Source: a virus
Length of the DNA stretch: 35,903 bases
Strand: one strand, 5' to 3'
Virus record (IMG/VR): IMGVR_UViG_3300028571_000058
Coordinates: 1 to 35,903 of that record
In this document: in pieces, positions 3,995 to 35,903 of the stretch
Position numbering within the stretch: the first letter of the stretch is position 1
How the letters are laid out: every line of letters starts with the position of its first letter
Made by a program: the position numbers and the translations under genes
Notes under the pieces: model-generated
Database searches by the model: none
Told to the model about the DNA's origin: nothing
Seen by the model: only the letters and a program-made list of their open reading frames with translations

Positions 3995-4010
3995 GTTTTC
4001 CTCTCATTTG

Positions 4011-4028
4011 TAGGCCTTGCTTGGCCTA
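4011..4028. promoter_or_regulatory. inverted repeat in the leader of the DUF932 gene
   Basis: Perfect six-base arms TAGGCC and GGCCTA around TTGCTT, 17 bases upstream of the DUF932 start codon. It lies in the 209-base region between divergent genes and could be an operator or a leader hairpin. No regulator is tied to it. Confidence 0.35.
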
Positions 4029-4134
4029 TAGATTTACCCTCACATGAATTAGAGAGAAAAGCAAGTATTTACAAACTTTATTTTGGCCCCTAAAATCACC
4101 CCTAAAACCTTGTATTTACGGGGTGTTTCAATAG

Positions 4135-30399: not shown

Positions 30400-30744
30400 A
30401 TGTTGTTGCCTAAATCCGTCAAGGTGGGTAGCCAAATCTGGGAGATTACCGAGCAGAAGCGTAAGCATAACTCCGAATTTATAGATGGCACTTATGGTTT
30501 CACAATAGATAAAGATAATGTGATTGTCTTAGATGCCGATATGTCCAACTCCGTCAGGCGAGTTACCCTGCTACATGAAGTCCTACACGCAATTAGGTTT
30601 ACATTTGGTGGCTCACATAGGCCACACAAATCTACTAGTTACGAGGATTGGGAGCATTACTGGATTGGCTTGGTCGAGGAGCCACTAATTTTGATTCTGA
30701 GAGATAACCCAGACCTAGTTAGCTTCTTACTAACAGACGACTAA
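30400..30744 (+). CDS. HExxH metallopeptidase-like protein
   Basis: A 114-residue protein with TLLHEVLHAIR: His59, Glu60 and His63 form a zincin HExxH motif. A following acidic region (EDWEHYWIGLVEEPLILILR) could provide the third ligand. Small zincin-like proteins with an EPLxxxLRDNPDLVxF tail are common in phages; a peptidase or DNA-linked role is not established. Fragments typical of ImmA/IrrE are absent. AGAGGAC lies upstream of ATG 30400. Its stop is two bases from the end of the tmRNA-like RNA on the other strand. Confidence 0.7.
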   Translation: MLLPKSVKVGSQIWEITEQKRKHNSEFIDGTYGFTIDKDNVIVLDADMSNSVRRVTLLHEVLHAIRFTFGGSHRPHKSTSYEDWEHYWIGLVEEPLILILRDNPDLVSFLLTDD

Positions 30745-30745
30745 G

Positions 30746-30823
30746 TGGACTTGAGGGGAATTGAACCCCTGTGCAGTCGCTTCCATTTGTGGTTTTAGTG
30801 ACTGACGAATCCATAACAAGCCC
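30746..30823 (-). ncRNA. tmRNA-like RNA: tRNA-like domain without an mRNA-like domain
   Basis: A 78-nt element on the minus strand. GGGCTTG (30823-30817) pairs with CAAGTCC (30753-30747) as a 7-bp acceptor stem. Its third pair is G3:U70 and the discriminator is A, the alanine identity set of tmRNA. The T-arm is AGGGG-TTCAATT-CCCCT. Between acceptor and T-arm there is no D stem; instead TTATGGATTCGT matches the conserved tmRNA D-loop (UGGAUUCGAC), followed by a 5-bp helix CAGTC/GACTG in the place of tmRNA helix 2. That helix closes on only 21 bases, so pseudoknots and the tag reading frame are missing. CCA is not encoded. A standard tRNA fold with an anticodon arm does not fit. Confidence 0.65.
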
Positions 30824-30874: not shown

Positions 30875-32008
30875 TTAGATTATCGAAAGATTACTAAATT
30901 CCATTCCGTCTGTAATCATTGACAAGGCCCCAGTCCTAGCTATGTCGCCATGTCTGTGACGCCAGTAGCTAGACTCAGATTCAAACGTTGGCACACAAAT
31001 AACTACACGCTCTTTTTTGGCTTGCATGTGCATCTCATGTTCGTGGCCGTGAAGCAAGAATTGGGATGCTCCTGCCGAGTGGTTGTTCAAGGCTTGTTTA
31101 GCCCACCACTCAAAAGCTTTGCCCTTACCCCATTGGTTACCATGAGCGTGGGTAAAGACAGAATTACCAATTTGCCTAGTTAGCGTCATCTCGTCTTTGT
31201 TAGGAACATAGATTTGTACATGACCGTAAGAAGTTGGGTTCATTAGCAAAGCATCCGACAAAGCAATCATGGCCTCAGTAGCATGACCGTCATCTGGTCT
31301 GGTGGCAACTGGTAGGCGTTGAACTTCATCGTGATTACCGTTCACAACATCTATCTCTAGACGCTCTACGAGTGGGGCAAAAGCGTCAATAGCATAAAGG
31401 GCTAACCTACGGAACAAGCGGTACTGCTCTGTAACCGTTAGCTCTGTACGCCACATAGACTTACCGCCTTGGGATACATTACCCTCACCACAATCTCCAA
31501 GCCATGCCTGATGTACCATGCCGATGGCGTCAGTCTTACGTAGTGTTTTTAGTTGCTTGACACCATTGTCAATAGATGACAAGACCCTATCAACTATGCC
31601 TTGAGTTCCGTCACCGTCTATCTTGCCAAGCTGTAAGTCACCAGCCAGCCAGTGGTAAACAGCGTCACCCTTGGATTCGCTTGGGGTAAATTTACGCTTA
31701 CCGATTGAAGCCATGACGTCATCCATAGCAACTGTTGATGCTGGGCCAATAGCAAAGCGGTATGAGTGTAGCCACTCGCCATCTTCACGCTGTTGCCATT
31801 TAGATGTTTTTAGTGTCCCGATGATTCGGACTTCTCTTGGGTCGTACCCAAACATCTCAAGCACTTCGTCAAAGCGTGGTGCGGTAGCTAGTGGGCCTGT
31901 CTGTATAAAGCCTCTAGTGCCATCAAACTCGGTTGCCCTAATCTGAGGGGGAATTGGTTTTGGTTCGTCTGCGGTTGGGGTAGTTAGGTGGTCTTTCAGA
32001 CTAGCCAC
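30875..32008 (-). CDS. metallophosphoesterase (calcineurin/Mre11-like)
   Basis: A 377-residue protein with the full set of calcineurin-like metal-binding motifs: GDLQLGK (Asp124, with Gln126 in place of the usual His), GDCGEG (Asp172), NGNHDE (Asn226-His227), THAHG (His287/His289) and HGHEH (His320/His322). The first ~115 residues are unrelated and may bind DNA or partners. In phages such enzymes are nucleases or phosphodiesterases; an Mre11/SbcD-like role is possible but no SbcC partner is seen. GTG start at 32008, overlapping the HTH gene by eight bases. Confidence 0.85.
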   Translation of the reverse strand: MASLKDHLTTPTADEPKPIPPQIRATEFDGTRGFIQTGPLATAPRFDEVLEMFGYDPREVRIIGTLKTSKWQQREDGEWLHSYRFAIGPASTVAMDDVMASIGKRKFTPSESKGDAVYHWLAGDLQLGKIDGDGTQGIVDRVLSSIDNGVKQLKTLRKTDAIGMVHQAWLGDCGEGNVSQGGKSMWRTELTVTEQYRLFRRLALYAIDAFAPLVERLEIDVVNGNHDEVQRLPVATRPDDGHATEAMIALSDALLMNPTSYGHVQIYVPNKDEMTLTRQIGNSVFTHAHGNQWGKGKAFEWWAKQALNNHSAGASQFLLHGHEHEMHMQAKKERVVICVPTFESESSYWRHRHGDIARTGALSMITDGMEFSNLSII

Positions 32009-33870: not shown

Positions 33871-35903
33871 TCAGTTTCCTTTAGCTAAAAAGTCATCGTA
33901 CAGTCCTTGGTCGGCTACAATGTGCTGACCGTCTTGTGTACTGGCAATCAAGATTGGCGAGGAGCCAGTATTGTCAATCAGTCTGATGTCGTCAAATAGT
34001 CCCCTAGATACCGCCTCTGGGTACACCTGAGATACACTTCGGTGTGTACCAACGACTACCGAGTCTGGAACAAACCTACGGCTAGTTTCTCCTAAAGACC
34101 TGCTGTTAGCTCGGTTTAGGGCATCTGATGTGGGTATGGTGATGTAGGCAGCCTTTACCTTGTATCCACTGGCTCTGGCTGCGTCTACTTTACCAGCAAG
34201 GCTCTCAATAGAACTATTACCTGTACCGTCTAATACTACACTCTGTCTATTGAGAAAGGCAACTTTTTGTATGTCTTTGGCAACTAGGGATGACTCCTCA
34301 TGGCTAAAGGCAGCGGCGTTGAAAAAGTCATCGTCACTGGAGCTCATACGCATACGCTCAAATTCGCCCAACTCGCTTTTTATGTCATCGGCGTTTATTT
34401 GTACGGCGTTGTCGCCATCAGGGAATCCAGTTAGTCCAGTCCTTACAGCCGTAGACTTACCAGATGCTGGGCCACCACCTAATAGGTTGAAAGCAGGGTC
34501 ATCTGATACAGGAACATTTCTAGTAGCATCCTCTATAATTTTATTATGTAATTCTTTACGCTCTTTAGTGATTTGATAACCACCCTTACCGTCAGACTCC
34601 ATGTGATGCCATAAGGAGTGCTCTGGTGTAAGAACTGTGTTTCTATAAGTTACCTCTTCGGGTATACCAGCTTTGTAGCCACCAGTGGCTTCTGGGTTTA
34701 TTACACGACCCTCGGCATCTCTTGGTAGAGGCTTTTTGGTCTGACCTTTGTTTATTGCCCCTGCTCTGCGTGAGCGGATACCTGCGTAGCCACCCTTTCC
34801 ATGGGTACTCTGGTCGTGCTGTCCTGAAAGATGTTTGTTTAGATTCAACTGCAACAACCTACGGGCGGCATCTATGTTTACCTCATAAGCATCAGCAAAA
34901 TCATCGCCTACTACTAAGCGTAATTTCCACTGCCACTCCGAGTGTTTGCTCTGTAGTTCAGCCAAGTAGTTTGCTACACCCTGCTCACCGATACTAGTAG
35001 CTAGGGCATAACCAGCAACAATACAACTTCTAACCTGCTCGTTGGCTATGTAAAGTACCTTAGCCATAACGATAGGGTCATTTGTGTCTGGTATGTCAAG
35101 TGATGCGACCTCACCCATAAAGTCTGAGAGCATAAACGGGGCGTCAAAGTTTAGTTTGCGGATGTTTTGGGCTATTACGTCCATTGACTTGTCGGCTTCG
35201 TCATACACGTCACAGAATAAACTGTGGAATTGCTGAAAGTCTGGTCCACTCACGTTCCAGCTGAAGCCCTGAGCGATAAATTTGAACGCAACTACCTCTC
35301 CTAGTAGGTCTGATAGCTCCGCTGCCAACCCCTCTTTAGTTGGCTCGGTCATCATGTACGCTTCTTTAGCAAATTCAACGGCCTCAGCGTAATCAGAAGC
35401 CTCGATAAACGGTGCGTTTTTGTTTAGGGCTGAAATTATTGTAAGGGTGCCTAGCTTGTGACCAACTTTTGTATCTGTGGCTTTCCAACCATCAGCAAAT
35501 TCACGCCATACAGTTATCAAAGCGGCGGGGTTATCGTCATCGCCAGTGATTGTAAAGTTACTATTTGGTACTTTTATCTCACCGTCACGTACAATACGGT
35601 CAATCTTTCCCCTAGCTCTACCGCCTGAGCTGTTCCAACTTACAAAATCACCTTTGCTTGGAGCCTCTTTGGAGAATTCAACGGTTCCAGTTGGGTCATA
35701 ATCCAACTTAGATAGGTCTAGCTCGGTACGTTGGGCTGTACCACCAATAGACAGACCACGAATCTCGCCTGACTTGATTAGCTCCCAAGCCCAAGGCTCC
35801 CAAATGATACCCAAGAACGGTGTACCCGCTGGGAATTTATATTGGACCTCACCCTCTGGGTGCTTTATCTCAACCTCAACCTCATAAGGCCATGTAGCAC
35901 CCT
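33871..35903 (-). CDS. prohead protease-like / Tudor-like / Dps-like / zeta-toxin kinase fusion, partial
   Basis: At least 676 residues, open through the right edge, so its N-terminus is missing. Order, numbered from the TTG at 35814: (1) an XkdF-like prohead protease segment, FPAGTPFLGIIWEPWAWELI then GEIRGLSIGG; (2) a Tudor-like barrel (~52-130) with GDFVSWNSSGGRARGKI; (3) a Dps/ferritin-like domain (~158-305) with FSWNVSGPDFQQFHSLF and YDEADKSMDVIAQNI, in which His of HWNV is Ser and Glu of AERI is Gln; (4) the linker HLSGQHDQSTHG (~329-339); (5) a zeta-type P-loop kinase (~440-615) with GGGPASGKST, INADDIK, HEESS and VVLDGTG. A structural protein carrying toxin-like cargo is likely; the combination is unusual. 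Confidence 0.8.
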   Translation of the reverse strand, partial: GATWPYEVEVEIKHPEGEVQYKFPAGTPFLGIIWEPWAWELIKSGEIRGLSIGGTAQRTELDLSKLDYDPTGTVEFSKEAPSKGDFVSWNSSGGRARGKIDRIVRDGEIKVPNSNFTITGDDDNPAALITVWREFADGWKATDTKVGHKLGTLTIISALNKNAPFIEASDYAEAVEFAKEAYMMTEPTKEGLAAELSDLLGEVVAFKFIAQGFSWNVSGPDFQQFHSLFCDVYDEADKSMDVIAQNIRKLNFDAPFMLSDFMGEVASLDIPDTNDPIVMAKVLYIANEQVRSCIVAGYALATSIGEQGVANYLAELQSKHSEWQWKLRLVVGDDFADAYEVNIDAARRLLQLNLNKHLSGQHDQSTHGKGGYAGIRSRRAGAINKGQTKKPLPRDAEGRVINPEATGGYKAGIPEEVTYRNTVLTPEHSLWHHMESDGKGGYQITKERKELHNKIIEDATRNVPVSDDPAFNLLGGGPASGKSTAVRTGLTGFPDGDNAVQINADDIKSELGEFERMRMSSSDDDFFNAAAFSHEESSLVAKDIQKVAFLNRQSVVLDGTGNSSIESLAGKVDAARASGYKVKAAYITIPTSDALNRANSRSLGETSRRFVPDSVVVGTHRSVSQVYPEAVSRGLFDDIRLIDNTGSSPILIASTQDGQHIVADQGLYDDFLAKGN
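33970..34497 (-). other. zeta-toxin kinase domain of the fusion protein
   Basis: Residues ~440-615 (numbering from 35814). Walker A GGGPASGKST at 446-455, INADDIKSEL with catalytic Asp, HEESSLVAKDIQ, VVLDGTGNSS, and RSLGETSRRFVPD with arginines for phosphate binding. Zeta/PezT toxins phosphorylate UDP-N-acetylglucosamine and block wall synthesis; whether this one does is not shown by sequence. Confidence 0.8.
34900..35343 (-). other. Dps/ferritin-like domain of the fusion protein
   Basis: Residues ~158-305, a helical domain with the Dps signature W-N-V-x-G-P-x-F-x-x-x-H and the following D-x-x-A motif. Two of the four usual iron ligands are replaced (His to Ser in FSWNV, Glu to Gln in AQNI); His197 and Asp212 remain. 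Iron oxidation is doubtful; a helical-bundle assembly or DNA-contact role is possible. Confidence 0.7.

Follow-up and report, generated by a model that had tools for sequence, protein, structure and literature searches.

A viral RNA resembling the tRNA-like domain of tmRNA alone and its relatives in phages and bacterial genomes

Can a virus encode a transfer-messenger RNA (tmRNA) that consists of its tRNA-like domain (TLD) only, and what would such an RNA do in the infected cell? The question arises at positions 30746-30823 of the virus record IMGVR_UViG_3300028571_000058, the 35903 nucleotides of which were analysed as a whole and are referred to here as the window. A sequence-only reading of the window had proposed an element of this kind; it is real, its coordinates are exact and it lies on the minus strand. 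The Rfam tmRNA model RF00023 matches 30743-30823 (-) with 50.1 bits (E = 5e-17; gathering score 47 bits) and spans model positions 1-374 in 81 nt, in agreement with the proposed reduction to the TLD. Covariance model R1, which was built without the window, scores the RNA at 65.9 bits, compared with at most 38.6 bits for tRNAs and other tmRNA-like matches in the same search. We consider it somewhat probable that the phage encodes, as mycobacteriophage DS6A does, a functional TLD-only tmRNA, and that this RNA acts as an alanylated competitor which inhibits or diverts host trans-translation.

Structure of the RNA and its precedents

The RNA and its parts are as follows.
30746..30823 (-), TLD-only tmRNA-like RNA (RF00023, model R1, covariation)
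30817..30823 (-), acceptor stem, 5' strand GGGCUUG, including G3; pairs with 30747-30753
30806..30812 (-), tmRNA-type D-loop GGAUUCG without a D-stem; family form GGNTTYG
30798..30804 (-), helix 2, 5' strand CAGUCAC (sequence, folding, compensatory changes)
30783..30792 (-), inner hairpin CCA-CAAA-UGG, the window version of the family form CCG-CAYG-CGG (folding, family alignment)
30774..30780 (-), helix 2, 3' strand GCGACUG (sequence, folding, compensatory changes)
30754..30770 (-), T-arm AGGGG-UUCAAUU-CCCCU (sequence, folding)
30747..30753 (-), acceptor stem, 3' strand CAAGUCC, including U70; pairs with 30817..30823

The mature RNA runs over 78 nt from G1 (30823) to the discriminator A73 (30746) and reads GGGCUUG-UUAU-GGAUUCG-U-CAGUCAC-UAAAA-CCA-CAAA-UGG-AA-GCGACUG-CAC-AGGGG-UUCAAUU-CCCCU-CAAGUCC-A; CCA is absent from the DNA 3' of A73, where CTT is found instead. 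The acceptor GGGCUUG/CAAGUCC forms 7 bp including G3:U70 and is followed by the discriminator A, the D-loop UGGAUUCG lacks a D-stem, and six of the seven positions of helix 2 are paired. The stemless D-loop of the GGUUUCGA/GGAUUCGA type (GGAUUCG) and the T-arm are features of canonical tmRNA. All of the parts named in the sequence-only reading (7-bp acceptor, G3:U70, discriminator A, D-loop, helix 2 and T-arm) are thus present. Only 35 nt separate the D-loop from the T-arm, and neither the sequence nor the RF00023 match contains an mRNA-like domain, a tag frame or pseudoknots, which upholds the earlier statement that the RNA cannot tag. The minimum-energy fold is in essence the same structure, although the single sequence folds just modestly better than its shuffles do (z = -2.46); the strong evidence is comparative.

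An ordinary tRNA cloverleaf, named beforehand as grounds for abandoning the proposal, was not found. ARAGORN reported neither a tRNA nor a tmRNA in the window, a D-stem is missing, the inner hairpin on helix 2 takes the place of a 7-nt anticodon loop, and of the tRNA/tmRNA clan it is the RF00023 match that was kept, with no other Rfam family passing on this RNA. A permuted tmRNA (RF04321) shares the TLD with the window RNA but differs in the order of its parts, and this model gives only 15.3 bits.

The closest precedent by description is the TLD-only tmRNA of DS6A, a different phage (Mao et al., 2009; tmRNA Website Phage__Mycobacterium.9), which likewise consists of the TLD alone. The existence of the DS6A RNA, reported in PMC4131195 and PMC11915505, corrects the sequence-only reading, which knew of no such minimal form. 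Canonical one-piece tmRNA (ssrA, RF00023) has the same acceptor with G3:U70 and A73, stemless D-loop, helix 2 and T-arm, but the window-type RNAs lack its mRNA-like domain, pseudoknots and tag, measure about 78-82 nt, as opposed to about 370 nt, and contain the extra inner hairpin; canonical full-length tmRNAs are also found in phages (Bxz1, Wildcat and the Streptomyces phage Daubenski). Tag and pseudoknots are likewise absent from the jakobid mitochondrial tmRNA without an mRNA-like region, which differs in being organellar rather than phage-borne, in one or two pieces and usually permuted (RF02544). In the plastid tmRNA of Mallomonadaceae, which lacks a coding sequence (CDS; about 65 bp), the tRNA-like part alone is left as in the window RNA, but it is organellar and represented by two sequences only (PMC11915505). 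The 2025 tmRNA database lists nine 'standard, no CDS' sequences from all sources (PMC11915505), and our literature search, which is not proof that none exists, found no paper that describes TLD-only phage tmRNAs as widespread. The kind of RNA is therefore already known from DS6A; the breadth, the covariation, the inner hairpin and the unannotated copies in cultured Streptomyces phages described below are new.

A family with alanine identity and covarying stems

A gapped pattern of D-loop and T-loop at short spacing matched 118 viral contigs, and three further pattern scans, two over viral contigs and one over bacterial genomes, extended the family; an exact-match pattern derived from the window RNA had no matches in viral contigs. 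Filtering for acceptor pairing left 126 distinct candidates: G3:U70 is present in 117 and the complete GGG...UCC form in 116, 115 of which also have the discriminator A. The 82 distinct matches picked only by inner hairpin and T-arm, and so unselected for the acceptor, are a stronger test of alanine identity: at least six acceptor pairs form in 80 of them, GGG...UCC-A occurs in 77 and the D-loop GGNTTYG is kept in 43. A scan that demanded no 3:70 pair returned 149 distinct RNAs with G3:U70 and A73 from public viral contigs and bacterial genomes, and the non-G:U matches that it printed were mostly ordinary tRNAs. G3:U70 and the discriminator A are almost invariant in the family while the adjoining acceptor pairs covary; the 3:70 pairs of ordinary tRNAs at the same loci vary. 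Length is near-constant. ARAGORN misses most of these RNAs, and its 'tmRNA' calls over L379, L275, L008 and L124 look spurious, each enclosing an intact TLD with no recognised tag. Candidates that were set aside include the 'tRNA-Pro' of IndiRoo (L002) and a match in Whirlwind (L432), which are short or degenerate tRNAs, and matches in Stenotrophomonas, Xanthomonas and Pseudomonas SM1 at or below 38.6 bits, which were left out of the TLD-only count. The subgroups L212, L218, L221, L228, L263 and L185, L191, L198, L201, L268 have the D-loops GGUUUAGC and GGUAUCGA with intact alanine identity, and may contact SmpB differently.

Helix 2, which was never used for selection, was tested without alignment in 83 RNAs less than 85% alike, anchored on the fixed D-loop and T-arm. 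Pairing at positions 1-8 is 99, 95, 94, 93, 86, 83, 73 and 68%; shuffled means are 41-47% at positions 2-8 and 88% at the near-constant first pair, and none of 1000 shuffles reaches the observed value at any position, although related sequences inflate shuffle tests. Slid controls showed no enrichment. In an alignment of 30 members, 97.7% of cells are paired, both sides have changed at 16 of 22 pairs and the covariation score is 0.656, whereas slid controls do not exceed 0.138; selection had already made use of T-stem pairs 4-5 and of some acceptor pairing. In the window RNA and its syntenic counterparts in L385, L386 and L398, 98.7% of cells are paired and nine of 19 pairs differ on both sides. 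The compensatory changes that the sequence-only reading had asked for in related phages are thus present, and the acceptor, helix 2 and T stems of the family are held by compensatory change, which, on this comparative evidence, places the structure under selection.

These results bear directly on two rivals. Decay to a functionless deletion remnant of a full phage tmRNA had been allowed by the sequence-only reading, and in a single genome a tmRNA minus its middle would indeed look alike. No tool result favours it, however, and we reject it as having next to no probability: compensatory changes occur in four helices across the family, the RNA is conserved with compensation at the same locus, length is near-constant and the members share an inner hairpin that host ssrA lacks. 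Alternatively, the stretch could be attP core sequence of a phage whose integration site is ssrA, since cluster K mycobacteriophages such as Milly and Validus have a tmRNA 3' end beside the integrase (PMC10865867). Those cores contain the 3' half only, whereas the window has the 5' acceptor strand, the D-loop and helix 2, all coevolving, and the window proteins tested, which cover part of the open reading frames (ORFs), include none recognised as an integrase; an attachment-site copy is accordingly very hard to credit. A prophage attP overlapping ssrA was discarded on the same grounds, both tmRNA halves being present and covarying, and the ssrA 3' end is not exactly duplicated in the 38 kb that span the Cellulosimicrobium TLD copy and its ssrA. 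The attP cores of Milly (L125) and Validus (L127), at about 4001-4038, match the tmRNA 3' end just upstream of a tyrosine integrase and are look-alikes to be excluded from TLD searches.

At the tip of helix 2 most members have the motif AAR-CCG-CAYG-CGG-A. Of 116 members, 67 contain CCGC[AT] and 83 have a best inner hairpin of exactly 3 bp; these fractions are inflated, one of the three pattern scans having selected for the hairpin, but the motif is also found in D-loop-only scans. The CCA-CAAA-UGG of the window is a compensated form. Six ssrA genes of carrier genomes were examined, and none contains the motif. AAR-CC-GCA resembles a resume codon, but a mini-tag in the hairpin was rejected, since there is no consistent in-frame stop and an Ala-to-stop frame exists in only 13 of 67.

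Possible action on host ribosome rescue

In the proposed mechanism the phage TLD RNA would be transcribed and trimmed like a tRNA, the host would add CCA, and host alanyl-tRNA synthetase (AlaRS) would charge it with alanine. Host SmpB and EF-Tu could then bind the alanyl-TLD, which would compete with host tmRNA for SmpB and stalled ribosomes. A ribosome that takes it could not add a degradation tag because the TLD has no resume codon, so that host trans-translation would be inhibited or diverted during infection. In E. coli, tmRNA is reported to be strongly inhibited by a molecule like that of DS6A, for which SmpB titration is a possible route (PMC4131195; PMC11915505). The decoy that the sequence-only reading had offered is still the best mechanism, though an inferred one, while its 'primer or capture device' found no support.

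Several observations weigh against such a competitor, chiefly as a plain inhibitor. Inhibition in E. coli is reported for chargeable and unchargeable forms of the molecule alike, so that pure SmpB titration would leave the near-invariant G3:U70 unexplained. SmpB contacts the D-loop region of tmRNA (PMC3985003), yet the D-loop varies more than the alanine identity does, and about 35 of 78 TLDs found via the hairpin depart from GGNTTYG. Furthermore, the phage Riptide encodes a full tmRNA of its own that a plain inhibitor would also strike. The near-invariant alanine identity suggests that charging matters, and we therefore think an alanyl-TLD arriving at stalled ribosomes a better account than pure titration of SmpB. 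Once there, the TLD may either block the ribosome or rescue it without a tag.

In the rival view of tagless rescue, the alanyl-TLD and host SmpB would accept the nascent chain and help to free or recycle the stalled ribosome, which would spare phage proteins made from broken mRNAs or keep ribosomes in service. This model needs charging, which titration does not, and the charging identity is almost invariant. It also resembles the role supposed for the CDS-less jakobid mitochondrial tmRNA, and mitochondrial tmRNA without a tag frame is nevertheless conserved together with SmpB (PMC11915505; PMC3985003); the many TLD copies in tRNA arrays, some with phage RNA ligase genes nearby, fit as well. 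No known step, however, frees a ribosome after transpeptidation without a reading frame, and the effect reported in E. coli for such a molecule is inhibition (PMC4131195). We regard tagless rescue as rather unlikely.

The genomic neighbours of the family raise another alternative, in which the TLD is a decoy or substitute in phage tRNA counter-defence that absorbs host tRNA-cutting or -modifying enzymes, its tmRNA likeness being mere scaffold. tRNAs lie within 1.5 kb at 37 of the 126 TLD loci, 238 of these 239 tRNAs on the strand of the TLD, and the ligase genes near some loci would suit this role too. The TLD has no anticodon, however, most loci including the window have no tRNA nearby, and a pure scaffold needs no G3:U70, which is found in nearly every copy. 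Such a decoy therefore appears improbable.

A broader and decidedly tentative proposal is that these RNAs form a large unrecognised phage class of alanyl-TLDs with a conserved apical hairpin, charged by host AlaRS, delivered together with host SmpB and able to take over nascent chains on stalled ribosomes. A function beyond titration would come from the hairpin, such as tagless ribosome release or a hold that favours the phage, and phages with both RNAs, such as Riptide, would use the full tmRNA and the TLD at different times. The DS6A RNA has so far been a single phage curiosity; the same kind is seen here as approximately 150 distinct RNAs under clear selection, a breadth which suggests that many phages use a TLD RNA to interfere with or redirect host ribosome rescue. 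The copies in cultured phages of laboratory Streptomyces hosts make the question of why phages would do so with a minimal RNA directly testable.

Carriers and the window locus

The cultured carriers recognised by model R1 (55-95 bits) are the Streptomyces phages LuckySocke, GiJojo, Alone3, BRock, Shaeky, pSt2308, Riptide and Tomas. The TLD is unannotated among tRNA genes in all eight except GiJojo, in which the annotated 'hypothetical protein' gene 44 (L434, 594-836) overlaps it and is probably a false ORF call. Riptide (L429) has the TLD-only RNA at 1472-1551 and an annotated full tmRNA at about 95095 of the record, with the tag ANSKFAFALAA. The Microbacterium phage Quenya (L431, 1439-1530) carries an unannotated variant of 41 bits in which the inner hairpin is long (CUCAGCC/GGCUGAG) and the D-loop shortened. 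In Pseudonocardia broussonetiae a TLD-only RNA (L433, 2975-3056) lies on a 27-kb plasmid, a circular element with a tyrosine integrase that is possibly a plasmid-like prophage.

Chromosomal copies occur in Cellulosimicrobium, Microlunatus, Actinomadura and Terracoccus genomes, and also in Mycobacterium, Acidimicrobiales and other metagenome-assembled genomes. Three of the four chromosomal neighbourhoods tested contain phage-type genes, and five TLD-carrying host genomes have a separate full ssrA (about 370 nt) elsewhere. A shallow first look at 297 genomes of one actinobacterial order gave a match only in the centre genome of the survey; rarity in chromosomes is only suggested. Among 40 viral records with a TLD, many of which are fragments, no SmpB gene was found in any, and none has a full-length tmRNA beside the TLD, all tmRNA matches above the cut-off being about 80 nt. 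In the record of the Synechococcus phage S-CAM1 (L129, about 2001-2080) the tRNA-like 3' end of an unannotated tmRNA precedes a 5' tRNA-like start by just a few bases, which is the arrangement of a permuted tmRNA gene.

Two genes flank the RNA in the window, and no tRNA genes are found near the locus.
30875..32008 (-), MRE11-like phage exonuclease gene (phrog_284), 51 nt upstream of the TLD RNA on the same strand
30400..30744 (+), small metallopeptidase-like gene (DUF6782/SprT-like), convergent and ending at the 3' flank of the RNA; a neighbour only

The TLD RNA is downstream of the exonuclease gene in L385, L386 and L398 (exonucleases 82, 81 and 27% identical), as in the window, and upstream of it in L387 (68% identical). 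The window phage has no close match among isolated phages, but the best 25 exonuclease relatives listed among them are all from actinophages, and its host is therefore probably an actinobacterium. Elsewhere in the window, 33871-35814 (-) encodes a 647-residue protein that combines TUDOR-like, ferritin-like and Zeta-toxin/kinase domains in one chain, an odd fusion.
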